In this document: piece by piece, positions 25,895 to 41,314 of the stretch
Layout of the letters: the number at the start of each line of letters is the position of its first letter
Position numbering within the stretch: the stretch's first letter is position 1
From: Acidimicrobiales bacterium
GTDB lineage: Bacteria; Actinomycetota; Acidimicrobiia; Acidimicrobiales; Ilumatobacteraceae
Direction of reading: 5' to 3'
NCBI GenBank assembly: GCA_025463415.1
Contig: JAOBWO010000237.1
Span: 1-44,184 of the forward strand
Length of the DNA: 44,184 nt
Position numbers and translations under genes: made by a program
Notes under the pieces: model-generated
What the model was told of the DNA's origin: nothing
The model's input: the letters and a program-made list of their open reading frames with translations, nothing else
Databases searched by the model: none

Positions 25895-25922
25895 CTGACG
25901 TGCCGGTGGCGGCCGGCGTCAG
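25895..25922. terminator. Hairpin between the convergent small-protein and SDR genes
   Basis: CTGACG, a two-base bulge, CCGG, a six-base loop, CCGG, CGTCAG. The outer right arm contains the SDR stop codon. It could act in both directions; there is no T-run. Confidence 0.45.
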
Positions 25923-26722
25923 CCGTCGCGCTCGGGAAGGCGCAGAGGCAGGCGCCCGAGATGGGCGCCGGCATCGGCCAGGATCAGCTGACCGGTGATG
26001 CACCGGGCCAGATCGCTAGCCAGCACGACGCACAGCCGCCCGAGCTCGTCGGGCTCGCACACCCGCTGCAACGGCGTGGACCGTGAGATCTCGTCGAACT
26101 GCTCCTGCCCGATCACCGCGGCCACGTCGGCCGTGTAGGTGGTGCCCGGCGCGACCGCGTTGACACGGATGCCCAGCGGCCCGAGCTCCACCGCCAACGT
26201 GGTCGTGAGGTGCACGATCGCGGCCTTCGCAGCGCCATAGCTCGCCAGCCCGAGCGCGGCACGAGTCGCCTCGCCGGACGCGACGTTGATGATCACGCCA
26301 CCTGGACCCTGACGCTCGAAGAGCGCGGCCTCGGCCCGGCAGCAGCGATACGTGGCGTGCAGGTTCTGTTCGATCACGGCCCATGCATCGTCGAGCGGCG
26401 TGTCCAGGAACGCGCGGGCCTTCCTGCCGGCCATCATTCCGACGTTGTTGACGGCGACGTCCAGTCGGCCGAGCTCGGTGACGATGCGCGCGAACATGTC
26501 GTCGAGCGCATCGTCGGAGCGAACGTCGGCTGCGAAGGCGACCGCGTTCCCCCCGTCGGCGCAGATCCGGGTCGCCGTCTCGGTCGCGCGGACCGGGTCG
26601 ATGTCGTTCACCGCCACCGAGGCGTCGGCCCGAGCGAACCAGGTGGCGATCTCGCGGCCGATTCCTGCGCCCGCCCCGGTGACGAGCACGACGGTGCCGG
26701 GCATGGTGATCTCGATCGTCAC
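25919..26722 (-). CDS. SDR-family NAD(P)-dependent oxidoreductase
   Basis: This 267-residue short-chain dehydrogenase/reductase has the N-terminal cofactor motif TGAGAGIG, the NNVG motif, a catalytic Ser in NVASGEA, and YGAAK (Tyr-x3-Lys). An acidic residue after strand two (NDIDP) suggests NAD rather than NADP. GTG 26722 has GAGG seven bases upstream; ATG 26704 (261 residues) is the alternative and lacks a good ribosome site. The ORF-track start at 26878 reads through promoter DNA. It is divergent from the WGDG-UGSC operon and probably uses the same control region of about 95 bases. Its substrate is therefore likely to be an alcohol or ketone in that pathway, which is inference. Confidence 0.88.
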   Translation of the reverse strand: MTIEITMPGTVVLVTGAGAGIGREIATWFARADASVAVNDIDPVRATETATRICADGGNAVAFAADVRSDDALDDMFARIVTELGRLDVAVNNVGMMAGRKARAFLDTPLDDAWAVIEQNLHATYRCCRAEAALFERQGPGGVIINVASGEATRAALGLASYGAAKAAIVHLTTTLAVELGPLGIRVNAVAPGTTYTADVAAVIGQEQFDEISRSTPLQRVCEPDELGRLCVVLASDLARCITGQLILADAGAHLGRLPLRLPERDG

Positions 26723-26817
26723 GGGGCGCCTCGTGCTGGTTAGTGTTCGGCCGTCGAACGGGTCGTTCGAAGCGTAGATCGATGATGTCGTTGGCCACCG
26801 GGTCAGGGGAGGCGATG

Positions 26818-27870
26818 ATGAGCACCGCCGAGTACACGGCAGCGACGATCGATCTCGACCACGACACGCCCGAGGCACTGCTCGAGCTGTTCACCGCGCG
26901 TGGGTGGGGTGACGGGCTCCCGCTCGTCGCTCCGACCATCGACCGCGTCGCCGCGATGCTGGCCGAGGCCAGTGGGCCACCCGACGAAGTGATCGCGATC
27001 CTGCAACCACGTGCTGGCGTGGTGACCCGACGCGTCGTCGCCATCAACGCGGTCCTCGCGGGCTGCGCGCCGAACACGTTCCCGGTCGTGCTCAGCGCGA
27101 TCCGCGCGTTGGCGCGGCCCGAGGTCAACCTCCGCGGCGTCAACGCCACGACGCACCCCGTCGCACCGATGGTGATCGTCCATGGCGAGGTCGTCGAGCG
27201 CTGCGGCTTCAATGCCGGCACGGGCGGCTTCGGCCCCGGCAACCGGGCCAACGCGACGGTCGGCCGGGCGGTACGACTGATCCTCCTGCACGTCGCAGGC
27301 GCGGTGCCCGGGTCGGGCGACGCGTCGACGCACGGCCAACCGGCGAAGTACACGTTCTGCGCGGCGGAGAACCTCGCCGAGAGCCCCTGGGGCGGCTATG
27401 CCGCGACCCGTGGCGTGTTGGAGCCGAGCGCAGTCACGGTTCACTGCGGCGAGGGTCCGCACAACGTGCACGATGCCGAAGCAGCCGGTGATCCGGCGTT
27501 GATCCTCGACAAGATCGCGTCGTCGATGACGACGCTGGGGATGAACAACGCCCCGATCAGCCAGGCCGAGTTCTTCGTCGTCCTCGGCCCGGAGCACGCG
27601 CGCAGCCTCGCTGCTGCGGGTCTGTCGCGTGAGGACGTGTCGTCGTACCTGTACGAGCGCGCCCGCTTGCCCGCCGCCCTGTTCCGCCGCCACTTCCAGG
27701 AGCTGGCCTGGGCGACGTGGATTAAGATCGTCGCCGACGATGCCCTGCTGCCGATGACCGGCCACCCCGACAACGTGCGCGTCGTCGTCTCCGGTGGTCC
27801 CGGGAAGCACTCGTTCGTCGTACCGTCGTGGGGCATGACCCGATCCGTCACCGTCCCGGTCACCGGCTGA
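26818..27870 (+). CDS. Conserved WGDG-motif protein, first gene of the UGSC operon
   Basis: The 350-residue protein is not assigned a function by me. It opens with a helix and the striking motif RGWGDGLPLVAPT at about 28-40. It continues with a mixed alpha/beta region containing conserved-looking NAVLAGCAPNTFPVV, NATTHPVAPMVIVHG and a Gly/Asn-rich GFNAGTGGFGPGNRANATVGRA. A C-terminal segment has EFFVVLGPEHARSLAAAG and HSFVVPSWG. Cysteines at GCAPN and RCGFN could be redox or metal ligands. I recall proteins with this WGDGLP start beside UGSC genes in other bacteria, so it is probably an obligate partner. ATG 26818 is chosen over 26815 because AGGGGAGG ends five bases before it. The next gene begins four bases after its stop. 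Confidence 0.75.
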   Translation: MSTAEYTAATIDLDHDTPEALLELFTARGWGDGLPLVAPTIDRVAAMLAEASGPPDEVIAILQPRAGVVTRRVVAINAVLAGCAPNTFPVVLSAIRALARPEVNLRGVNATTHPVAPMVIVHGEVVERCGFNAGTGGFGPGNRANATVGRAVRLILLHVAGAVPGSGDASTHGQPAKYTFCAAENLAESPWGGYAATRGVLEPSAVTVHCGEGPHNVHDAEAAGDPALILDKIASSMTTLGMNNAPISQAEFFVVLGPEHARSLAAAGLSREDVSSYLYERARLPAALFRRHFQELAWATWIKIVADDALLPMTGHPDNVRVVVSGGPGKHSFVVPSWGMTRSVTVPVTG

Positions 27871-27874
27871 AGCC

Positions 27875-28690
27875 GTGGCCATCACCATCTACGCCCCGGA
27901 CAGCGAGCCGAGACCGGACCACGGTTCGCTGGCGGCATCGCCCCCGTCGCTCGCCGGCCTGCGCATCGCGGTGCTCGACAACGGCAAGCCCAACGCCGTC
28001 ACGGTGATGACTCGCGCCGCCGAGACGCTGGCGGCCCGCACCGGCGCCACCGTCGCGCTCGTCACCAAGAAGGGCCCCGGAGGCCGCTCGGCGAACGCGG
28101 CCATCCCGTGCGCTGACGACATCTTCGAACGCATCGTCGCGGAGGCCGACGTGGTGGTCACCGGCGCCGCCGACTGCGGCAGCTGCACGGCCTACAGCGT
28201 GTACGACGCGATCAGCTTGGAGAAGGTCGGTCTGCCCGCCGTCGTCGTGACGACGACGAAGTTCGCGCCGATCGCGGCGACCATGGCCGCCGACTTCGGC
28301 ATGCCCGACGTGCGCACGCTCGTGCTGCCCCATCCGTTCGGCGGCACCGATCGGGACACGTTGTGGGAGTGGGCGGATGCAGCCGCGGAGTCGCTCGAGG
28401 CGCTGTTGCTCGGGCGGACACCGCCCCCACGGACGGGCGACGTCACTGCGGCACCGACGGGTGTTGCGATGACCGATCTGCTCGCTCTGGTCGAGGGCGA
28501 TGGTGCGACCTTCGAGCTCATTGAGGTGTCACCGGCCGGTGTGGTGCGGCTGCGCCTGGTGATCGAGGACGCATCCTGCGCCGAGTGCGTGATGCCCACC
28601 GAGCTCCTGGAAGCCACCGCGTTGCGAGTCCTGCGCTCGACGCAGCCCGGGGTGTCCGCGGTGACGATCATCGACCCCCGCCGGCCATGA
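27875..28690 (+). CDS. UGSC-family protein, cysteine form (CGSC)
   Basis: The 271-residue protein matches the UGSC family, named for a U-G-S-C motif whose first residue is often selenocysteine. Here the motif reads CGSC (Cys101, Cys104) and the codon is TGC, so no selenocysteine is needed. Other family marks are LDNGKPNA near the N-terminus, VTKKGPG, and the later VLPHPFGG. The C-terminal 75 residues add a small alpha/beta domain with CAEC (Cys235, Cys238) and a NifU-like or MetN-like ending (TIIDPRRP), which may be a second redox or metal site. The family function is unknown to me; a thiol/selenol oxidoreductase or C-S chemistry is inference from the motif. GTG 27875 follows the WGDG stop by four bases, and its own stop overlaps the next start (ATGA). 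Confidence 0.85.
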   Translation: MAITIYAPDSEPRPDHGSLAASPPSLAGLRIAVLDNGKPNAVTVMTRAAETLAARTGATVALVTKKGPGGRSANAAIPCADDIFERIVAEADVVVTGAADCGSCTAYSVYDAISLEKVGLPAVVVTTTKFAPIAATMAADFGMPDVRTLVLPHPFGGTDRDTLWEWADAAAESLEALLLGRTPPPRTGDVTAAPTGVAMTDLLALVEGDGATFELIEVSPAGVVRLRLVIEDASCAECVMPTELLEATALRVLRSTQPGVSAVTIIDPRRP

Positions 28691-29724
28691 CCGACGCGCC
28701 GCCGATCGTCGTCGCGATCCTCTACCCGCGTGAGTGGTACGGCGATCCCCACGGGTTCGACCGTGAGATCGATCGGCTCCACCAGCTCGACTCGCGGATC
28801 GAGGTCGTGGTCGAGCCGTACATCGAGGCCCATGAACGACGTGCGGGCGGAGCCGACGTGCCGCCCGCGCCGGAGCTCACCGTGGCGCAACACGCCGCGC
28901 TGGCCCGTGCCGAGATCGCGCTCGCGATGGACCTGCCCGACGGGCTCGTCGATGTCGCGCCACGCCTGCGCTGGGTGCAGTCCGTCGGCGCCGGGGTGAA
29001 CCACATCCAGGCCAAGGTCGCGGCCACCGACGCGCGGTTGACGACGAACGGAGGCAGCAACTCGATCGGCATCGCCGAGTTCGGCATGGCACGCCTGCTG
29101 GAGCACTGGAAGCGCTTCGACGACCTCCGCGGCTTTCAGGCCGAGCATCGGTGGGAGGCCCGGTTCGGCCGGCAGCTGTCCGGCTGCACGCTCGCTCTGA
29201 TCGGCTTCGGGCCGATCAACCAGGCCATCGCGGCACGCGCCGCCGCCTTCGGCATGCGCGTCCTCGTCGTGCGCAGGTCACCGGGCTCCACGCCGCCGGG
29301 CGTCGAAGGCGTCGTCGGTCCCGATGGTCTCCTCGCCGTGCTGGCCGAGAGCGACGCGGTGATCGCGGCCGTGCCGGAGACCCCGGCCTCGATCGGCATG
29401 ATCGGCGCCACCGAACTGGCAGCGATGCCCAAAGGTGCGTTCTTCTGCAACCTCGGCCGGGGATCGCTGGTCGACGAGGCCGCGCTGGTGTCCAGCCTGC
29501 GCAGCGGCCACCTCGGCGGCGCTGCCATCGATGTCGCGTCCGTCGAACCGCTGCCCGCCGACCACCCGTTGTGGGACGCGCCCCGGCTGCGGATCTCGGC
29601 GCACTGCTCCAGCGTGCCGGCGGCGATGTTCCCGAGCGTGCACCGCGTCTTCCGCGACAACCTGGCCCGCTACCTCGCGGGCGAGCCACTGGCCAGCGAG
29701 GTCGCGCTCGAGCACGGTCGCTGA
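28687..29724 (+). CDS. D-2-hydroxyacid dehydrogenase
   Basis: The 345-residue protein belongs to the NAD-dependent D-isomer 2-hydroxyacid dehydrogenases, which interconvert 2-oxoacids and 2-hydroxyacids. The Rossmann motif reads GFGPINQAIAARAAAFGM. Catalytic residues are visible as Arg in NLGRGSLVDEAAL, Glu in VEPLPADHP, and His in ISAHCSS. WVQSVGAGVNH is the typical substrate-loop start. The residue after the second Rossmann strand is a basic VVRRSPG, hinting at NADP(H) as in glyoxylate/hydroxypyruvate reductases. ATG 28687 overlaps the UGSC stop in an ATGA, so the two are coupled. The context suggests that the pathway includes a 2-oxo or 2-hydroxy acid intermediate. Confidence 0.9.
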   Translation: MTDAPPIVVAILYPREWYGDPHGFDREIDRLHQLDSRIEVVVEPYIEAHERRAGGADVPPAPELTVAQHAALARAEIALAMDLPDGLVDVAPRLRWVQSVGAGVNHIQAKVAATDARLTTNGGSNSIGIAEFGMARLLEHWKRFDDLRGFQAEHRWEARFGRQLSGCTLALIGFGPINQAIAARAAAFGMRVLVVRRSPGSTPPGVEGVVGPDGLLAVLAESDAVIAAVPETPASIGMIGATELAAMPKGAFFCNLGRGSLVDEAALVSSLRSGHLGGAAIDVASVEPLPADHPLWDAPRLRISAHCSSVPAAMFPSVHRVFRDNLARYLAGEPLASEVALEHGR

Positions 29725-29729
29725 CCCAC

Positions 29730-30572
29730 GTGGCCGTGTCCCCGTCTGTGGACGTGCCCGTGATCGACACTCACGTGCACGTCGCCTGCGGTGACACGGT
29801 GGCGCATCCGCTTCGGCCGACCGGGGTGGGCAGCGCGTGGTGGTCGCAGCAAGACGGGACGGCAGCAGCGGTGTTCGCGGCAGCTCGGTCGGTCGGCGTC
29901 GACCGAGTCGTGGTCGTGCAGGCTGTCGGCGCGTACGGCTACGACGCCTCCTGCGCGGCAGCCTCAGTCGCAGCGTCGTCCGGATTCGCGACCTTGGTCG
30001 CCGCACCGGACATGAGCCGGCCGGATCCGTGCGCGTCGATCGGTGCAATCCTCGAATCGCCGCACCTGCGCGGCCTGCGACTGTTCGGGGTGGCCGACGG
30101 CGCGCCATGGTTGGACGATGCACGCGGGGACTCGGTGATGGCGTGCTGCGCGGACCGGGGCTTGGTGGCCGTGCCGACGATCTTCTCCGACCGTGTGCCC
30201 TCCCTTCGCGGGTTGATGGCGCGCCACCCCGACGTCGTGGTCGCGCTGGACCACTGCGCGTTCCCCGACATGGCCGGTGAGGCCGGTGAGCGCGCCCTGT
30301 TCTCGCTCGCCGACGTCGCCGGGTTGCACCTGAAGGTGAGCAGCCACGTGTTGGCGGCATGGCAGAGCGAGGGCCGCCTGGGTGAGGTGTTCGGCCGGCT
30401 CGTTGACGCCTTCGGTGCGTCGCGCATGTGCTGGGGCTCGGACCACCCGCAGCACGAGGGCCTCGACTACGCCGGCAAGCTGGCGCTCGCCCGTCTCGCG
30501 GCCGCGCACCTCGTTGACGCCGATCGGGAGATGTTCTTCGCCGGCACCGCCCGTCGCCTCGGGTGGGGCTGA
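29730..30572 (+). CDS. Amidohydrolase-2 family TIM-barrel enzyme (decarboxylase or lactonase type)
   Basis: The 280-residue protein fits the amidohydrolase_2 group, which includes 2-pyrone-4,6-dicarboxylate lactonase and aromatic decarboxylases. The first metal motif is IDTHVHVACGD, with LDHCAF in the middle and WGSDHP near the C-terminus providing the last Asp. The chain is a little shorter than the 300-330 usual in the family. GTG 29730 begins five bases after the dehydrogenase stop; GTG 29736 is an alternative. It is the last gene of the plus-strand operon and converges on the CrtC/AttH-like gene with a 27-base gap. It would hydrolyse a lactone or decarboxylate an acid made earlier in the pathway; the substrate is unknown. 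Confidence 0.85.
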   Translation: MAVSPSVDVPVIDTHVHVACGDTVAHPLRPTGVGSAWWSQQDGTAAAVFAAARSVGVDRVVVVQAVGAYGYDASCAAASVAASSGFATLVAAPDMSRPDPCASIGAILESPHLRGLRLFGVADGAPWLDDARGDSVMACCADRGLVAVPTIFSDRVPSLRGLMARHPDVVVALDHCAFPDMAGEAGERALFSLADVAGLHLKVSSHVLAAWQSEGRLGEVFGRLVDAFGASRMCWGSDHPQHEGLDYAGKLALARLAAAHLVDADREMFFAGTARRLGWG

Positions 30573-30599: not shown

Positions 30600-31724
30600 T
30601 CAGTGCTCGGCGTGAACGCGCAGGTGGCCGTCATCGTCGAGGTCAGCTTCCGCGATGAACGTGAGGCTGCCGGTGCCGTAACTGGTCCCGTGGGGCCCGT
30701 TCAGCGCCAGCCGTACGGGCTGGATGCGGTGCACCGGGCGAGTGGTCGTTCCATCGGGGAGCACGACCTCTGCGGGATGGGTGACGTCCCACACTCCGTG
30801 CTCGAGGTGATCCAGGCCGCGGTGCACACCGAGGCCCCGGCCGTCGTCGTAGCCGCCGTAGCCGAGGCCCTGCATCGCGACAGCGGGACCCTGGCGTTCG
30901 ATGACCAGCTCGAAGGACTCACCCTCGTCGTCGGTGACGGCGATCGTGGCTTCGCCGAAGCGGCGCGGCCGGCCCTCGTCGACGAACTGGGCGTCGAGAT
31001 CGACTCGGTGGCAGGCGTGCACGCGCCCGTCCGCGCGCTCGACGATCTGGGCGGTGAGGTGGCTGGCCCCGCCGATCCGGGTGACTTGCACATGACCGCT
31101 GTGGGTCTCGGTCGAGAAGAACAAGAACACGAAGACCGGACCGGACACGACCGCCTTCTGGCCGGTGTACGGCTCGAGGATGCCGACGTTCTCGCGCACA
31201 CCCCACGAGTGGTCACGGCATGCCCACCACGACTCGACGTCGAGGCGTTGCCCATCGATCTCCAACCATCCCGAGAGCTCGCCGATCTGGTCGTAGCGGC
31301 TGTAGTCCTCCAGGACCCGCCCCCACGAGCGGTTGAAGTGGTGGTGCTCCTCCTGCGCGCCCGAGGTCGCCGTCCACACCACGTCCCCGCTGATGCTGCC
31401 GGCATTGGGGGCGATCGTCAGACGGATCCGCCGCAGCGGTTCGATCACCTCCATGCGCAGAGGCCCGGTGGAGGTCTCGTACTCGGGACGGAGCTGGCGT
31501 GAGGCGCGCACGTTGTGCTGCCGGCCATCGCGGATGACGACTGCTCCGCCATCCACCACGTTCATGTTCTGGTACACGCCGATCGTGAACTGGAACGCGC
31601 CGTTGCCGATCCGGTCCGACGCGGCGAACCAGAGCCGGTCGAAGAAGCGCACGTCGCTCGTGCCGACGTGGTCGAAGGTGGTCGGCAGCTGGTGCCAGAG
31701 CGAGTCATCGAGCGGTGTGAGCAC
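30600..31724 (-). CDS. CrtC/AttH-like lipocalin-fold protein (DUF7064/DUF7065 type)
   Basis: The 374-residue protein resembles a two-domain beta-rich group related to carotenoid 1,2-hydratase and AttH. The marker is WWACRDHSWGVR, the RDHSWGxR signature of these families, with FNRSWGRVLEDY earlier. DRLWFAASDRIGNGAFQFTIGVYQN near the N-terminus is also typical of the actinobacterial members found in lipid or steroid degradation clusters. No catalytic role is established. Its start overlaps the 3' end of the DUF6285-type gene by 20 bp, so it is the last cistron of the minus-strand operon. It may bind or hydrate a hydrophobic intermediate, which is inference. Confidence 0.7.
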   Translation of the reverse strand: MLTPLDDSLWHQLPTTFDHVGTSDVRFFDRLWFAASDRIGNGAFQFTIGVYQNMNVVDGGAVVIRDGRQHNVRASRQLRPEYETSTGPLRMEVIEPLRRIRLTIAPNAGSISGDVVWTATSGAQEEHHHFNRSWGRVLEDYSRYDQIGELSGWLEIDGQRLDVESWWACRDHSWGVRENVGILEPYTGQKAVVSGPVFVFLFFSTETHSGHVQVTRIGGASHLTAQIVERADGRVHACHRVDLDAQFVDEGRPRRFGEATIAVTDDEGESFELVIERQGPAVAMQGLGYGGYDDGRGLGVHRGLDHLEHGVWDVTHPAEVVLPDGTTTRPVHRIQPVRLALNGPHGTSYGTGSLTFIAEADLDDDGHLRVHAEH

Positions 31725-32148
31725 TGGTGATCCCTTCGACGCGCGCCGTACGACCGACGGACGTGCTGGCCAGCGGGAAGCGCCCGCATCGCTCGCGGAA
31801 GTAGCCGACCATCGCGGTCCGTGCCGCAGCGTCGGCGAGCACCACCGGCATTGCGGCTTCGAGGGCGCGACGCGCGTCCCGCTGATGCTCGGCCAGTGCG
31901 TCGAGGTCCAGCGGATCGCCGGCGAAGCCGACCGTCTGCGCGCCGGCGATCGCGAGGATCGAGTTGCACCGCTCGGAGTCCCACCGCAAGAAATCGGGGA
32001 TCTCGTCCCACCGGCTCAGCGTGTCCAGGACCGCCAGCACGCCCGCGAGCACGTCGGCCGGGTAGGGATCGGCGACGTGCGGCGCGACGACGTCGGCGAG
32101 GATCCGCCGGATGCCGGCCAGTTGTTCCGTGACGTTCGGTCGCATCAT
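31705..32148 (-). CDS. DUF6285-type small protein
   Basis: The 147-residue protein is helical and fits the small family usually found beside APH-type phosphotransferases and acyl-CoA dehydrogenases. Visible features are MRPNVTEQLAGIRRILADVVAPH at the start, CNSILAIAGAQTVG in the middle, and RERCGRFPLASTS near the end. Role unknown; a partner or stability factor for the adjacent kinase is likely from the constant pairing. Its ATG at 32148 (a second at 32145) overlaps the stop of the phosphotransferase in an ATGATG arrangement. No acyl-CoA dehydrogenase gene is present in this operon, unlike the usual layout I recall. Confidence 0.7.
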   Translation of the reverse strand: MMRPNVTEQLAGIRRILADVVAPHVADPYPADVLAGVLAVLDTLSRWDEIPDFLRWDSERCNSILAIAGAQTVGFAGDPLDLDALAEHQRDARRALEAAMPVVLADAAARTAMVGYFRERCGRFPLASTSVGRTARVEGITSAHTAR

Positions 32149-33176
32149 GCCCCGATCTGGTCGAGCAGGATCCGGTAGAGCATCACCGGCGACTGGTGGA
32201 CCCGGTCGAGCCGGTGATCGACGAAGGCGTGCGTCCCGCTGAGCACGATGATCGACAGCTTCACGTTGGCCAGGACCTGCCACCAGTGCACGACGTCGAG
32301 GTCCGGAGTCCAGCCGGTGCGGGCGGTCCAGAGGCGCAGCAGATCGGCCGGTTCCCAGTGACCGGCGATGCGGTGCTCGCCGGCGCGCAGCGGGTTGGTG
32401 ACCCAACCGAGATCTTCGTGCGGGTCACCGAGGTGCACGGTCTCCCAGTCGAGCACCGCAGTCACGTCTGTTCCGCCGCCATCGGCGTCTCCATCGCCGT
32501 CTCCATCGCCGTCTCCATCGCCGTCTCCATCGCGGTCGTCACCGAGGAGCAGGTTGCCCGGCTTGAAGTCGCCGTGGACGAGTGTCGTGCGCTCGTTGGG
32601 CGGCGCGTTCGATCGCAGCCACGCGAGCACGAACGCGAGCTCGGGCTCCGGGTCGAGCTGCACGCGACGCAGCTCGCCCTGCCAGTGATCGAGCGCCGCG
32701 CCGGCGGCGTGCTGGCCCGGGTCGACGAGGTGCTCGCCGAGGCCGAGCTCGGTCCAGTCGAGGAGGTGGATGTCGGCGAGGCGTCCGTAGATCCGCCGCG
32801 CGAGCGCGACGCGAGCCTCGATCGGTCGATCGCCGTTCAACACCAGCGGCTGACACGAGCCCGGAGCGAGGTCCATGATCAGCGCAGGCCGGCCGAGGCG
32901 GATCCCATCGACGTCTGCCCAGCGCAGCACGGGCGATGGCACCTCGGTGTGGGCCAGGGCGCACAGCACCGCCGTCTCGATCCGCCGATCGGTGTCGAGC
33001 ACGCTGCCGACCGGGTCGCGTCGAGCGATCAGCGGATGGTGCTCGCCGTTCCAGCTCGCATCGAAGACCCAGTTCTCGCGCGAGAAGCCGTTCGATGTGC
33101 GTCGCAAACCTTGGATTTCGACGTGATGGCCCGTCTCGTCAGCGAGCCAGGTGGCGAGCCCGTCGGCGATGCTCAC
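32145..33176 (-). CDS. APH-type phosphotransferase family protein with a (Asp-Gly) repeat insert
   Basis: The 343-residue protein has a protein-kinase-like aminoglycoside-phosphotransferase fold. N-terminal SNGFSRENWVFDASW is the nucleotide loop, LVHGDFKPGN (about 199-208) is the catalytic loop, and LDWE (242-245) holds the metal-binding Asp. Between these, residues about 213-232 are an Asp/Gly repeat encoded by a 12-bp minisatellite. Members in catabolic clusters are ACAD10-like and phosphorylate hydroxyacyl-CoA or small alcohols; that role is likely here, rather than antibiotic resistance. GTG 33176 overlaps the amidohydrolase stop in a GTGA. The ORF-track frame runs on to 34382 antisense-like within the next gene and is not used. 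Confidence 0.85.
   Translation of the reverse strand: MSIADGLATWLADETGHHVEIQGLRRTSNGFSRENWVFDASWNGEHHPLIARRDPVGSVLDTDRRIETAVLCALAHTEVPSPVLRWADVDGIRLGRPALIMDLAPGSCQPLVLNGDRPIEARVALARRIYGRLADIHLLDWTELGLGEHLVDPGQHAAGAALDHWQGELRRVQLDPEPELAFVLAWLRSNAPPNERTTLVHGDFKPGNLLLGDDRDGDGDGDGDGDGDGDADGGGTDVTAVLDWETVHLGDPHEDLGWVTNPLRAGEHRIAGHWEPADLLRLWTARTGWTPDLDVVHWWQVLANVKLSIIVLSGTHAFVDHRLDRVHQSPVMLYRILLDQIGA
32479..32538 (-). repeat. 12-bp minisatellite inside the phosphotransferase gene
   Basis: Five 12-bp units of the type CCATCGCCGTCT (plus strand) lie end to end; the first and last differ at one or two bases. They encode alternating Asp-Gly. The middle units are identical, which points to recent slippage. 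Copy changes keep the reading frame. Confidence 0.85.
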
Positions 33177-34348
33177 GCCGCAACGCGGTAGAGGCGGGCC
33201 GCGTTCGAGACGAGGACCTTCTCCAGCACGTCGTCGGGCAGCGACGCGAGCGCTGCGTTCGCGTAGGTCTCCGGCGCGACCGCCGGCGTGGCCGGGCCGG
33301 GGTGCTGGCAGGTCGGGTGCGGGAAGTCCGTCTCGAACATCATGTTGTCCGGATAGGCCAGCAGCGCCGGCAGCACTGCGTCGCGCTCGTACCAGAAGCA
33401 GCCGTGGATCTGTCGCCGAAAGTACTCCGAGGGCAGGAGGTCGTACTCCGGGTGCTCGCCGGCGACACCGCCGTTGCGCCACTGCCAGTCGAACGCTTCG
33501 AGCGCGCCGGGAATCATCCCGACCCCGCTCTCGACCGACACGAACATCAGCTCCGGGAACCGGTGGCACACCCCGCCGTGGATCAGGTCGGTGATGCACT
33601 TCAGGTTGTCGACGAACAGCATCGAGGACATGCGCGAGAAGTTGGCCCGAAAGCCCATGTCGAGGCCCTTGGCGATCAGCTCGCCGATCCGGCCGCCGCC
33701 GATGTGGAAGTTGACCGGCACGCCGGTGTCGCGAGTGGCGGCCCAGAGCGGGTCCCAGTGACGGTCCCACAGCGGCGGCTGCCCGTATGCCTCGGGCTGG
33801 TTGCAGAAGTTGATGCCGCGGTGGTCGTTGCCGACGCAGCGCTCGATCTCGGCGATCGATGCATCGACGTCCCAGAAGGGGATCGACGTGATCGGCAGCA
33901 GCCGCTCGGGGGCGACCGACGCGAAGTCGGTCTGGAAGTCGTTGTAGGCACGCAGGCAGTCGAGCGCGTACTCGGGCTCGCCCTTGTCGAGCCACGCTCC
34001 CGCGCCGAAGCCGCCGAGGTTCGGGTAGAGCACCTGGGCGCGGATGTGCTGTTCGTCCATGAACCGAACCCGTGCTTCGGGGTTCCAGGCCGCCGGGTGC
34101 ATGTCTGCGTAGGTCTTCGGCCCGTCGGGCAGCGTGCCGTCGAAGCCCGCCATCGCGGTGTTGCCCGGCTTGGCGTACGGCTGTCCGTTGACGACCCACA
34201 CATCGAACTCGTTGATCCGCTCGATGTGCGGGATCGCGTCGCCCCACTTCGACGACATCCGGTCGGTCCAGGTGCCGGGCGGTTCGGTGATGTGGGTGTC
34301 GACGTCGATCACACCGAAACGTTCGAACAGCGACACGGTGCTGCTCAT
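33173..34348 (-). CDS. Amidohydrolase family protein (ACMSD-like)
   Basis: The 391-residue TIM-barrel protein belongs to the amidohydrolase_2 group related to 2-amino-3-carboxymuconate-semialdehyde decarboxylase. The N-terminal metal motif reads VIDVDTHITEPPGTW, so the usual HxH is replaced by DTH after VD. VNFHIGGG supplies the central His and FETDFPHPT the last Asp. PNLGGFGAG and FEPDYDLLPSEYF-like regions match actinobacterial members in catabolic gene sets. It would decarboxylate or hydrolyse a carboxylated intermediate. ATG 34348 shares one base with the VOC stop (TGATG), and its own stop overlaps the phosphotransferase start. Confidence 0.87.
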   Translation of the reverse strand: MSSTVSLFERFGVIDVDTHITEPPGTWTDRMSSKWGDAIPHIERINEFDVWVVNGQPYAKPGNTAMAGFDGTLPDGPKTYADMHPAAWNPEARVRFMDEQHIRAQVLYPNLGGFGAGAWLDKGEPEYALDCLRAYNDFQTDFASVAPERLLPITSIPFWDVDASIAEIERCVGNDHRGINFCNQPEAYGQPPLWDRHWDPLWAATRDTGVPVNFHIGGGRIGELIAKGLDMGFRANFSRMSSMLFVDNLKCITDLIHGGVCHRFPELMFVSVESGVGMIPGALEAFDWQWRNGGVAGEHPEYDLLPSEYFRRQIHGCFWYERDAVLPALLAYPDNMMFETDFPHPTCQHPGPATPAVAPETYANAALASLPDDVLEKVLVSNAARLYRVAA

Positions 34349-34776
34349 CAGCGGCGGTTGGTCGAGCCGGGATCCGGCACACCTTCGGGCGTGCCTTCGT
34401 GGTTCTCGATCAGCTCGATGAGGTAGCCGTCGTAGTCCTTGATGAACGCCACCGTGACCGGCCAGCGGTCCAGCCGGGCCGGCTCTGATACCGATTCGCA
34501 ACCGGCGTCGAGGCAGCGCTGGTACAGCGCGACGCAGTCGTCCGTGTACAGGTAGAGCTTCCACAGCGATCCGCCCATCTCGATCGGGCCGACCTGGTCC
34601 TTCTGCTGGGCGAGCTGGATCCGCGACCCGCCGGCGTCGGCCTGGAGCACGGCTTCGAGCGCCGTCGGGATCTCCGTGCGACTGCGCAGCGGGATGCCGC
34701 ACAGGTCCCGCCAGAACCCGATCGAGCGCTCGAGGTCGGTGACGTTGATGCAGAACTGGCCGATGATCTGGCCCAT
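34348..34776 (-). CDS. VOC-family (glyoxalase/dioxygenase fold) protein
   Basis: The 142-residue protein has two beta-alpha-beta-beta-beta modules of the vicinal-oxygen-chelate fold. The start IIGQFCINVTDLERSIGFWRDLCGI is typical, although the usual first metal His is replaced (FCINV). The C-terminal YDGYLIELIENHEG keeps the final Glu of the metal site. Members act as glyoxalases, extradiol dioxygenases, epimerases or isomerases; lacking the first His, it may not be a classical metalloenzyme. A strong GAAGGAG lies six bases before ATG 34776, so this is probably the first gene of the minus-strand operon. The FAH gene upstream on the same strand is 88 bases away. Confidence 0.82.
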   Translation of the reverse strand: MGQIIGQFCINVTDLERSIGFWRDLCGIPLRSRTEIPTALEAVLQADAGGSRIQLAQQKDQVGPIEMGGSLWKLYLYTDDCVALYQRCLDAGCESVSEPARLDRWPVTVAFIKDYDGYLIELIENHEGTPEGVPDPGSTNRR

Positions 34777-34864
34777 GGGCGACTCCTTCGTCGATGTCGG
34801 CTCAGGATCACATGCGACGTCGATCCGAGACGAGCCGGACCGAGCGCGGCCGTGTGGACGGGGG

Positions 34865-35707
34865 TCAGCGCGCCGCTGAGCAGACGTTGACGAGCTCGCC
34901 GATGCCCTCGATCGCAGTGCGCACCGTCTGTCCCGGCCGCAAGAAGACGGGCGGCGTGCGGCCGGCGCCGACGCCGTCGGGTGTGCCGGTTGCGATCAGG
35001 TCGCCGGGCACGAGCGTGAAGATCTGCGACAGGTAGGCGATCGTCTCGGCCACCGGGAAGATCAGCTCGGCCGTGGTGTCGGACTGCATCTCGACGCCGT
35101 CCACCTCGCACCGCACTGCGAGCCCGCTGCCACCGGCCGGCAGCTCGTCAGCGGTCACCAGCCACGGCCCGACCGGCGTGCTGTGCTCGAACGTCTTGCC
35201 CTGCAGGAACTGCGTGGTGCGACGCTGCCAGTCGCGGGCGCTGATGTCGTTCATGATCGTGTAGCCGGCGACGTGATCGAGCGCTGAAGCGACCGGGATG
35301 TCGCGTCCGGGACGCCCGATGACGACGGCGAGCTCGACCTCCCAGTCCATGCGCTCGGACACCAGCGGCATCTCGATCTGGTCGCGAGGGCCGATCAACG
35401 AGCTCGTGTACTTGGCGAAGATCGTCGGGTGGTCGGGCACGTCGTGACCCATCTCGCGGATGTGGCGCATGTAGTTGAGCCCGAGGCAGATGATCTTCGG
35501 CGGGCGTGGGACGACCGGCGCGAGCGCTGTCATGTCGAGCTCGATCGTCTCGCCTGCTTCTCCGGCGAGCGCGCGCCAATCGGCTGCTTCGAGCAACTCG
35601 TTGAGGTCACGTGCGCCGAGCAGCACGACGGAGTCGCCCTCGACGCGGCCTGCGCGCGTGCCGCCTCCTGCACGACCATCGCCGGTGCGGATGGTCACGA
35701 GTCGCAT
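34865..35707 (-). CDS. Fumarylacetoacetate hydrolase (FAH) family protein
   Basis: The 280-residue enzyme belongs to the FAH/HpcE group that cleaves C-C bonds or hydrates oxo-acids in aromatic and other catabolic routes. PKIICLGLNYMRHIREMG opens the catalytic domain. The metal carboxylates are in DWEVELAVVIGR (Glu-x-Glu). GYTIMNDISARDWQ, SDTTAELIFPVAETIAYLSQ and GDLIATGTPDGVGAGR complete the family pattern. The active-site acid usually placed near GLNYxxHAxE is present in part (HIREM). ATG 35707 has only a distant GGA before it. It likely belongs with the VOC-amidohydrolase operon, so the pathway probably yields a 2,4-dioxo or hydroxymuconate-like acid; that is inference. Confidence 0.9.
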   Translation of the reverse strand: MRLVTIRTGDGRAGGGTRAGRVEGDSVVLLGARDLNELLEAADWRALAGEAGETIELDMTALAPVVPRPPKIICLGLNYMRHIREMGHDVPDHPTIFAKYTSSLIGPRDQIEMPLVSERMDWEVELAVVIGRPGRDIPVASALDHVAGYTIMNDISARDWQRRTTQFLQGKTFEHSTPVGPWLVTADELPAGGSGLAVRCEVDGVEMQSDTTAELIFPVAETIAYLSQIFTLVPGDLIATGTPDGVGAGRTPPVFLRPGQTVRTAIEGIGELVNVCSAAR

Positions 35708-38673: not shown

Positions 38674-41280
38674 TCAGGCGGCGATGAACACGCCGGCGAG
38701 GTCGACCACCAACTGGGTGCCGCTCTGGGAGTGCAGGCTCACTGCGCCGCCCGTGCCGACACCGACCATGACGGCGTTGGGGATCGTCTGGTCAGCGCCC
38801 TCGACGTTCACGTTGGACGCCAGAGGCGTCGGTGCACCGGCCGGCGAGACCGTGACGTAGCCGGCCGCAACGGCTTCGGTGGCGGTGACGTTGAGGACAG
38901 CGGCCGAGATCGGCTGACCGCCGTCGATCGCGAGGTCGACGGACGCGCCGGCCCCGACTCCGTGATCGGGACGGGTGTCGAGCAGCCGTCGCGGTACGAC
39001 GGGAGCGAAGAGGCCGACCTTGGAAGCGGGTGCGCTGCCATCGGTGTAGTAGCCGGTGATGTCGACGACGAGGTGGGTGCCCGATTGCGAGAACAGTGAG
39101 ATCGCGCCGCCCGCACCGACCGGGACGATGACGAGGTTGGGGATCGTTTCGCCGGCGTGGCTGATGTTGAGGTTGGACACGACGGGACGGGCGATGCCTG
39201 CCGGCCACACCGTGACGTAGCCGGCGTCGAGCGCGTCGGTGGCGGTCACGTTGACGACGACGGCCGACGCTGCCGACGGAACTCCACCGACGTTGGTGAC
39301 CACGAGATCGGTCGATTTCTGCGCTGCCAGTGGCGTTCCACCGGTTCGCGTGTCGAGCAGTCGGGTCGGCGTGAGCGGGATGAATCGGCCTGACTTCTGG
39401 TCGGTGAACGGCCGGTAGTAGCCCGAGATGTCGGCAATCAGGTGCGTGCCGGACTGGGTGAACAGCGACACCGTGCCATCGGCGCCGATGGGCACCGTGA
39501 CGAGGTTCGGGATGGTCTCGCCGGCGTACTCGAGGTTCAGGCTGGACACCACGGGCTGGGCCTGACCGGTCGGGAACACCGAGACGTAGCCCGGCGCGGT
39601 GGCCTCGGTCGCGGTGATGTTGAGCACCACCGCGGTCACCCCAGATGTCGGGATGCCGTTGACGCCGAGCACGAGGACGCTCGTGGTGGAACCGGCCACC
39701 GGCTTGGTGCCCTGACGGGTGTCGAGCAGGCGGAACGGGGCGATCGGCACGAACTGCGAGATGTTCGCGGGGTCGGCGGGGTTGGCGGGGTTGCCGTTCC
39801 CACCGGGGGGTGCGCCGAGCACGGCCGGCGCGGCAACGGTGACGGTGACGTGCGCGGCGTGGCACTCCTGGGCGACGCACACGGTGTAGTCGAAGCCGTC
39901 GGCACCGCCGAACCCGACGTTCGAGGTGTACACGACGTCGTGACCGGCGAACTGCGCCGTGCCGTGTGCCGGCGGTGTGCTGACCGCGAAGGATCCGCCG
40001 GTGATCGACGAGGCCAGCAGCGTGTTGCCGTCGGCGCCGAGATCGTTGGCGAACACCGAGATCGTCTTTGCCGTGTTCGACGACGCGATCGCGCTGTCGG
40101 CGACCGGGGAGATGCTGCGCTCATAGGCACCGGCATCGCAGCGTTGGGTGTTCGTCGGTCGTGGGAAGCCCCGTTCGTCGAGCTCGCCCGGATCGCAGGT
40201 GGTGATGTTCACGGCTGCGCTGGACGCGGTGAGGGCCTGGGTCCGTGCCGGACCGCCGTTGTCCATCAACGGGCTCAGCCCCGGGTCGGCGTTGCCGAGG
40301 GTCAGCACGTTGAACGAGGCCGGTGCGCACGAGCTGTCACTCACGACGGTGGCACCGCTGACGTACGGCGTGGTGACGCTGCACTCGGCTCCCGTGTTGC
40401 GCACGATCAGGCTGTCGACGAGCGCGAACTCGCCCGACTGGGCCACGGCGATTCCACCGCCGGTGACACCACCGACGTTGTCGGCGATGGTCACGTGGTC
40501 CAGCGTCCACCGCCGCGTCCCCGGCGTGCCGCCCTGAGCCCACAGCCCGGGGTACTTGTTCGCGGTGTTCTCCGAGATCGTGGTGTCGGAGATCACCAGC
40601 GGGAGACCGATGCCGACGATCGTCCCGGAGCCGCCGTGGTTGGCGTTGAACGTCGAGCTCTCGATCAGGGTCAGGCCGCCGACGATCGAGTTGAACTGGA
40701 TCGCGTTGCCGACCTGGCTGGCACTGTTGCCCGCGAACGTCGAGGTGTGGATCGAGAAGGGGCCGCCGGTGCTCACCCCGCCGCCCTGCGAGGCGCTGTT
40801 GCCGATGAGGTCGACGTCGGTGAGCGTCAGACGCGTGTGGTTGTCGATGTCGATCCCGCCGCCGTAGTCGACTCCGTTGCCGTTCTGCACGGTGACCCCG
40901 ACCAGTGTGAGCTGCCCGTTGCCGAGCACGTGCAGCACCCGATCAGTGATGTTCTTGGCGTCGATGAACGTCTGGCCTGAGCCGAGCCCGGTGATCGTCA
41001 ACGGCTGGAGCACGTCGAGATCGCCGCTGACGTTGCCGTCCTCCTGCGCGCCCGTGAGCGTGAGCGAGTACTTGCCGGCCCCGAGCTGGATGGTGTGGGC
41101 ACCACCGCTGGAGTTGGCGACGTTGACGGCGGCGCGAAGGCTTCCCGCCCCTCCGTCGGTGTGGACCGTGACAGCTGGTCCGGACGCTTGCGCGAAGAGG
41201 CCCGATGCCAGTGAGGTGACAGCAATGGCAGAGCTGGCGAGCAGCGCGCTTGCGACGATGGAGCGGATCTTTGTGGCCAT
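38674..41280 (-). CDS. Secreted right-handed beta-helix protein with Ig-like domain and three C-terminal surface repeats
   Basis: The 868-residue exported protein starts at ATG 41280, preceded by GAAGGTGG; the ORF-track ATG at 41310 has no support. After a signal peptide (about 1-36) comes a parallel beta-helix (about 40-400) with LTLTDVDLIGNSASQGGG and GNSASQVGNAI rungs, as in polymorphic outer-membrane-like and choice-of-anchor proteins. An Ig-like/cadherin-type domain (about 405-485; VFANDLGADGNTLL, GFGGADGFDYTVC) and a Gly/Asn/Pro linker follow. The last three modules (508-630, 631-754, 755-868) are the RLLDTR-type repeats and end at the C-terminus. No catalytic residues are visible, so adhesion or matrix building is the likely role. 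A perfect 7-bp palindrome lies about 35 bases upstream. Confidence 0.85.
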   Translation of the reverse strand: MATKIRSIVASALLASSAIAVTSLASGLFAQASGPAVTVHTDGGAGSLRAAVNVANSSGGAHTIQLGAGKYSLTLTGAQEDGNVSGDLDVLQPLTITGLGSGQTFIDAKNITDRVLHVLGNGQLTLVGVTVQNGNGVDYGGGIDIDNHTRLTLTDVDLIGNSASQGGGVSTGGPFSIHTSTFAGNSASQVGNAIQFNSIVGGLTLIESSTFNANHGGSGTIVGIGLPLVISDTTISENTANKYPGLWAQGGTPGTRRWTLDHVTIADNVGGVTGGGIAVAQSGEFALVDSLIVRNTGAECSVTTPYVSGATVVSDSSCAPASFNVLTLGNADPGLSPLMDNGGPARTQALTASSAAVNITTCDPGELDERGFPRPTNTQRCDAGAYERSISPVADSAIASSNTAKTISVFANDLGADGNTLLASSITGGSFAVSTPPAHGTAQFAGHDVVYTSNVGFGGADGFDYTVCVAQECHAAHVTVTVAAPAVLGAPPGGNGNPANPADPANISQFVPIAPFRLLDTRQGTKPVAGSTTSVLVLGVNGIPTSGVTAVVLNITATEATAPGYVSVFPTGQAQPVVSSLNLEYAGETIPNLVTVPIGADGTVSLFTQSGTHLIADISGYYRPFTDQKSGRFIPLTPTRLLDTRTGGTPLAAQKSTDLVVTNVGGVPSAASAVVVNVTATDALDAGYVTVWPAGIARPVVSNLNISHAGETIPNLVIVPVGAGGAISLFSQSGTHLVVDITGYYTDGSAPASKVGLFAPVVPRRLLDTRPDHGVGAGASVDLAIDGGQPISAAVLNVTATEAVAAGYVTVSPAGAPTPLASNVNVEGADQTIPNAVMVGVGTGGAVSLHSQSGTQLVVDLAGVFIAA
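38677..39759 (-). repeat. Three surface-module repeats, beta-helix protein type (no paired Cys)
   Basis: The units lie at about 39391-39759, 39019-39390 and 38677-39018. Each shows RLLDTR, V[VL]N[VI]TAT[ED]A, GY-[VS]-x-V-x-P-x-G, S-[SN]-[LV]-N, QTIPN or ETIPN and a DI-[ST]-G-Y-Y type end. In the two positions where the protease copies have Cys, these have Thr or Ala and Ser. Confidence 0.85.
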
Positions 41281-41314
41281 GGTTCCACCTTCGTGGAGAC
41301 CGCCGGGCATGTCC

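Follow-up and report, generated by a model that had tools for sequence, protein, structure and literature searches.

A cysteine-type UGSC protein and its WGDG partner: a candidate two-subunit reductase in an Acidimicrobiales operon

What do UGSC proteins do? The Global Ocean Sampling (GOS) paper counts them among the most abundant selenoproteins of aquatic metagenomes, with 255 in the GOS set (PMC2398784). The literature surveyed assigns the family no function, and the family model NF041046 is mentioned there only in a family table. This work concerns one family member from assembly GCA_025463415.1 of an Acidimicrobiales bacterium (Ilumatobacteraceae), where we analysed positions 1-44,184 of the forward strand of contig JAOBWO010000237.1; this whole stretch of 44,184 nucleotides is called the window below. 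A sequence-only reading had pointed to an operon in which a UGSC protein lies directly behind a protein with a WGDG motif, and had held that the family lacks a settled function. A 2026 review places UGSC among selenoproteins with largely uncharacterised functions (PMC13188914). UGSC and WGDG make up an enzyme system of two genes that is real and widespread and that the literature surveyed does not describe. We believe they are the two subunits of one thioredoxin-fed, thiol- or selenol-dependent reductase, and we give that conclusion a probability of about one half.

The argument begins with the pairing of the genes. The WGDG gene (26815..27870, plus strand, ATG at 26815) encodes 351 amino acids with GWGDGLP at residues 30-36, and the UGSC open reading frame follows it (27875..28690, plus strand, GTG start). 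We searched 198 genomes of the same class as the window with PF24696 and with a WGDG profile. Each was found in 68 genomes and both in 65; six genomes lie outside the overlap, some of them with partial or weak matches. When loci are picked by UGSC, a WGDG gene adjoins on the same strand for 63 of 63 UGSC genes. When they are picked by WGDG, UGSC adjoins in 86 of 98, and the rest are mostly cases at a contig edge, second WGDG copies in tandem, or genes about 1 kb apart. WGDG comes first in 81 pairs and UGSC in 68, with a median gap of 35 bp. Since both orders are found, the pairing is kept by selection and is not one ancestral arrangement; since the pair, its motif and its set of partners recur in many genomes, the locus is not the product of chance. 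The pair is obligate. GTDB genomes contain more than 580 relatives among the matches listed, and the hosts among those matches include Betaproteobacteria, Alphaproteobacteria, Chloroflexota, Rokubacteria, Nitrospinota, Mycobacterium gordonae and the archaeon Natrialba. On a plasmid of Sporomusa termitida (L231:6320-8041) a UGSC-like and a WGDG domain are joined in one protein of 574 amino acids. This organism is an anaerobic acetogen, and the fusion gene adjoins aconitase X and ETF genes.

The motif that names the family tells a similar story. Alignment A1, of 55 UGSC proteins, shows no variation at G102, S103 and C104, and position 101 holds either selenocysteine (Sec, U) or cysteine (C). The motif reads UGSC in 113 of 149 paired loci, CGSC in 21, UGGC in 5 and UGAC in 3, and is altered or not recognised in 7. 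The window protein has CGSC, written TGC GGC AGC TGC at 28175..28186 (plus strand) and supplying Cys101 and Cys104; with a TGC codon and no in-frame TGA it is the cysteine form and not a selenoprotein. The idea that the two proteins share a reaction, put forward in the sequence-only reading, has survived both the count of adjacent genes and the comparison of homologues, which keep the cysteines with U or C at position 101. The host genome also encodes tRNA-Sec (67 bits, cut-off 47) and SelB (264 bits, cut-off 242), and on another contig (C305:2179-3814, locus L032) it has a second UGSC gene with an in-frame TGA for Sec, adjoining its own WGDG gene. The WGDG protein of that contig carries an N-terminal thioredoxin-like domain. 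A WGDG tree built by a quick method places the window's copy inside a five-row Cys clade (support 99), itself within eight Cys rows (support 73), which are nested within a subfamily otherwise using Sec. UGSC paralogues at L143, L160, L091 and L198 have an altered or lost Sec/Cys pair with WGDG still adjoining; such paralogues are possibly non-catalytic subunits.

To what is UGSC related? Its core domain (residues 1-180, 27875..28414, plus strand) matches PF24696 with 150.9 bits against a gathering cut-off of 25. It scores 107 bits against the NF041046 equivalog, below the cut-off of 125, and is therefore a divergent member of the family. Searched against PDB sequences, the UGSC profile matched nothing. 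The AlphaFold2 (AF2) model (mean predicted local distance difference test, pLDDT, 88) shows an alpha/beta sandwich in which CGSC immediately follows a strand and opens a helix. Foldseek pairs this model with flavodoxin-like proteins (E 1.6e-4, probability 1.0); its top 50 matches include no thioredoxin. The fold is thus predicted to be flavodoxin-like rather than thioredoxin-like, which disagrees with the guess of a thioredoxin-like fold in the GOS paper (PMC2398784). Sequence comparison points to the reductase selenoproteins GrdB and PrdB. The GrdB model is matched individually by 38 of the 55 UGSC proteins (best 1.2e-6) and its sarcosine/betaine relatives by 15-36 of them, with at most 7 matching unrelated models. 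When the GrdB and PrdB-like sequences are read through the Sec codon, hhalign aligns UGSC to Actinobacterial PrdB-like proteins at E 5e-5 and to GrdB at E 6e-4, the Sec/Cys positions coinciding exactly; as baselines, WGDG aligns to GrdB at E 0.09 and to GrdE at E 0.5. Against the full-length models (GRDB, TIGR01917, TIGR04483) the window protein reaches 19 bits, with a cut-off of 602. From these alignments we take UGSC to be a probable member of the reductase selenoprotein superfamily, though neither a GrdB nor a PrdB. The known GrdB and PrdB members carry out thioredoxin-linked reductive chemistry.

A candidate redox supply is found beside the pair. In a sister clade WGDG has an N-terminal domain with an invariant CxxC (DCPTC and similar). 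The domain is below detection by Pfam, and its profile matches PDB thioredoxins, at best with 4.7e-5 and with some 70 chains up to E 0.1. For this and the other comparisons by subfamily we set 29 loci of the window's subfamily against 111 other loci, taking genes within 2.5 kb: the N-terminal thioredoxin domain was detected in 34 of the 111 and in none of the 29. A thioredoxin reductase gene adjoins the pair as WGDG-UGSC-trxB in Roseovarius and as trxB-trxA-WGDG-UGSC in Arthrobacter, lies near it in Variovorax, and is within 2.5 kb in 7 of 141 loci. We infer that thioredoxin-type dithiols feed UGSC. The sequence-only reading had suggested a redox step; the thioredoxin domains, the trxB and trxA neighbours and the remote relation to GrdB and PrdB all support it. 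That reading is supported in part: its C-S or C-Se chemistry, its 2-oxo- or 2-hydroxyacid intermediate and its decarboxylation are conjecture.

The window operon has another candidate for this role. The C-terminal 80 residues of its UGSC protein (28448..28687, plus strand) are a separate gene in relatives. PF01106, the NifU-like family, is matched by 6 of 8 homologues of the extension (best 2.1e-8); the window copy alone has E 0.017 and 15.7 bits, under the gathering cut-off of 27. Its CxxC is invariant in 8 of 8 NifU-like homologues and reads CAEC in the window (28577..28588, plus strand). CAEC had been taken for a second site in the extension: the site is there, but it is probably the CxxC of a NifU-like domain and not a UGSC-type active site. 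No other fusion of UGSC to a NifU-like domain was noticed among the 141 compared loci. The same fusion occurs on a plasmid of Arthrobacter sp. ERGS1:01 (271 amino acids; PF01106 27.2 bits, cut-off 27), where the gene sits in the trxB-trxA-WGDG-UGSC operon, and this independent copy makes an assembly error unlikely. The GOS paper describes UGSC fused to an 'Unknown_1' domain with a conserved Cys (PMC2398784), which could be the same domain. A NifU-like gene is found with 10 of 21 Cys-type pairs and with 5 of 121 Sec-type pairs, a comparison of related sequences that is indicative only; by subfamily the protein is near 9 of 29 loci and 1 of the 111 others. In the window the NifU-like domain, with its CxxC, may stand in for thioredoxin or act as its relay.

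It is more difficult to place the WGDG protein. No Pfam or NCBIfam model matched the window copy, 57 homologues gave no credible match in Pfam, and a PDB sequence search with the WGDG profile returned noise only. Its AF2 model is a confident single structure (pLDDT 91, predicted template modelling score, pTM, 0.91), and Foldseek found no PDB match for it at E<=0.001. It is not a GrdE or PrdA homologue, since it does not align to GrdE. The residues D33, G34, P36, A79, C84, R151, C182, E185 and T208 are invariant (alignment A2), and conservation suggests that D33, C84, R151, C182, E185 and T208 form an active site or a subunit interface. One could argue from this that WGDG is the enzyme proper, an iron-sulfur (de)hydratase-like protein or a hydrolase acting through C84 and C182, whose metal centre would be provided or mended by UGSC and the NifU-like domain. 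NifU-like domains classically carry iron-sulfur clusters, WGDG has two invariant cysteines, and class I fumarases top its weak Foldseek list, in which barbiturase also appears. But those TM-scores are 0.2-0.27, too low for a fumarase or barbiturase relative, the invariant cysteines number just two, and the NifU-like protein is absent from most loci, the sister clade having thioredoxin instead. We consider this explanation unlikely.

The genes around the pair bear on the substrate. Upstream and divergent lies a short-chain dehydrogenase/reductase (SDR; 25919..26722, minus strand; PF13561, adh_short_C2, 196 bits), with YxxxK and GxxxGIG motifs; its start is best set at GTG 26722 because the relatives aligned to it start MSI-I-L-G---LVTGAG. 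An intergenic region of about 90 bp (26723..26814), with a ribosome-binding site AGGGGAGG at 26805-26812, separates it from the plus-strand operon. After WGDG and UGSC, which are 4 bp apart, come a D-2-hydroxyacid dehydrogenase (HADH; 28687..29724, plus strand, ATG start; PF02826, 2-Hacid_dh_C, 153 bits), coupled to UGSC by an ATGA overlap, and 5 bp further an Amidohydro_2 TIM-barrel hydrolase (29730..30572, plus strand, GTG start; 95 bits) with HxH and GSDHP motifs. The amidohydrolase is weakly lactonase-like, scoring 37 bits against the L-fucono-1,5-lactonase model (cut-off 400). Base by base, this layout is as the sequence-only reading gave it: SDR, WGDG, UGSC with its TGC-encoded CGSC and CAEC extension, coupled HADH, and amidohydrolase.

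An SDR of at least 40% identity is found at 21 of the 29 subfamily loci and at 0 of the 111 others (p = 9e-19); the subfamily counts include the window and near relatives such as L123, L130, L131 and L134, so the p-values are optimistic. For the amidohydrolase the counts are 7 of 29 and 0 of 111, for a DmdA-like demethylase 4 of 29 and 0 of 111, and for HADH 3 of 29 and 3 of 111. In L133 the order is WGDG-UGSC-HADH, the amidohydrolase lying opposite; in L073 HADH-amidohydrolase comes upstream of WGDG-UGSC-NifU-like; and an Embleya (Streptomycetaceae) plasmid carries WGDG-UGSC-SDR together with the amidohydrolase. The operon partners first proposed do recur with the subfamily, but HADH does so only as an option: together with the pair, SDR, amidohydrolase and HADH make up a genuine module that recurs, with SDR as its core partner.

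Several other neighbours should be recorded. A GcvT-family DmdA-like gene lies in or beside the WGDG-UGSC-SDR operon at L124:6734-7840, L125, L127 and L132; it scores 366 bits against the dimethylsulfoniopropionate (DMSP) demethylase model (cut-off 410), a hint that the substrates of that branch are methylated sulfur or amine compounds. Betaproteobacterial pairs (L151, L152, L158, L189, L191, L201 and others) lie among TctC (Bug) receptors and CaiB coenzyme A (CoA) transferases, often with several UGSC-WGDG pairs at one locus. Natrinema and Arthrobacter have ComA-like genes of the phosphosulfolactate synthase family not far from the pair (L229:3883-4350 and L234:4710-5495). We reject ComA as a general clue: the Arthrobacter protein matches 0 of 141 loci.

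A further view is that the module serves in detoxification, of reactive electrophiles or of organosulfur or metal(loid) species, with the thiol as scavenger and the catabolic neighbours incidental. Sec/Cys chemistry, the many aerobes among the hosts, the four loci with the demethylase and the ComA-like genes in two genera would all fit. Yet the strong and specific tie to one SDR subfamily and an amidohydrolase points to catabolism, as do the receptors for small organic acids beside the proteobacterial pairs, and we find detoxification improbable. Least likely of all is the literature's working idea of UGSC as a general oxidoreductase or peroxidase of thioredoxin-like type, with WGDG as its substrate or chaperone. 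The idea has the U/CxxC motif and a peroxiredoxin gene near four subfamily loci on its side, and against it the predicted fold, the separate thioredoxin domains and TrxB/TrxA that already accompany UGSC, and the location of the genes in catabolic-looking clusters.

The reductase interpretation has its own difficulties. The link to GrdB and PrdB is remote, with hhalign probabilities of 30-67% over about 80 residues around Sec. The dissimilarity of WGDG to the pyruvoyl partner GrdE means that the activation chemistry must differ from that of the glycine and proline reductases. A few UGSC paralogues lack Sec/Cys, among them the Sporomusa fusion, whose UGSC part is without the Cys motif. Neighbours also differ between clades (TctC receptors, CoA transferases, the DmdA-like demethylase, thiamine diphosphate (ThDP) enzymes); the reaction must then be a generic one or vary from clade to clade.

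If UGSC and WGDG are nevertheless the subunits of a reductase, we infer the following scheme. The two would form a complex in which WGDG holds a small carbonyl-bearing substrate. Cys101, Sec in most relatives, would act from the N-terminal end of its helix as the nucleophile; on analogy with what is generally known of GrdB and PrdB, the thiolate or selenolate would attack next to the carbonyl and the adduct would then be reduced off, leaving the adjacent bond cleaved or reduced. Cys104 would resolve the intermediate as a Cys101-Cys104 disulfide, and a dithiol partner would reduce this in turn: the WGDG-fused thioredoxin domain of one large clade, free TrxA/TrxB elsewhere, or the CAEC domain here. 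Electrons would run from NADPH to TrxB, to thioredoxin or another dithiol, to CAEC, to Cys101/Cys104 of UGSC and on to the substrate on WGDG. The SDR, HADH and lactonase-like amidohydrolase would prepare or finish an oxo- or hydroxy-acid substrate, SDR and HADH interconverting hydroxy and oxo groups and the amidohydrolase opening a lactone. More tentatively, the pairs may represent a new class of two-subunit reductases in bacteria and haloarchaea, with a GrdB/PrdB-like subunit, a substrate subunit of new fold replacing the pyruvoyl protein, and interchangeable dithiol donors.

If this is true, one of the commonest orphan selenoprotein families has a function. With a partner gene, a reductase kinship and electron donors, an 'unknown redox protein' becomes a definite enzyme of two subunits, open to purification and assay. 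For such work the versions of the window and of Arthrobacter are convenient because the Cys form dispenses with selenocysteine expression and the presumed reductant is fused or alongside.

Elsewhere in the window, a convergent neighbour cluster (30600-35707, minus strand) holds an Rv3169-family protein, an APH-type phosphotransferase with a GD-repeat stretch, an Amidohydro_2 protein and an FAA hydrolase, and looks catabolic. At 38674-41310 (minus strand) a large protein is encoded that bears a choice-of-anchor Q domain (NF041518).

How does the system compare with those already known? With the UGSC family (PF24696, NF041046) the window protein shares the core domain and the U/CGSC motif; it differs in its Cys form, its NifU-like fusion and its score below the NCBIfam equivalog cut-off. 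Like GrdB/PrdB (PF07355, TIGR01917, TIGR04483), the selenoproteins that catalyse glycine, betaine and D-proline reduction, UGSC has its Sec/Cys at the matching position, ahead of a helix and -LE..GiPtv-. Unlike them it has many aerobic hosts and, in place of the pyruvoyl partner GrdE/PrdA, WGDG; in the host genome, 76% complete, PF09338 found no pyruvoyl subunit. The extension has the length and the DG..{hydrophobic}..CxxC pattern of NifU-like (NFU, PF01106) domains, but the window copy alone stays below the Pfam cut-off and the domain is used as a separate gene or fusion beside UGSC. Thioredoxin/TrxB systems meet the pair as the domain fused to sister-clade WGDG and as trxB-trxA beside the Arthrobacter pair; the window operon, unlike these, has no thioredoxin gene, and its NifU-like CxxC may substitute for one.

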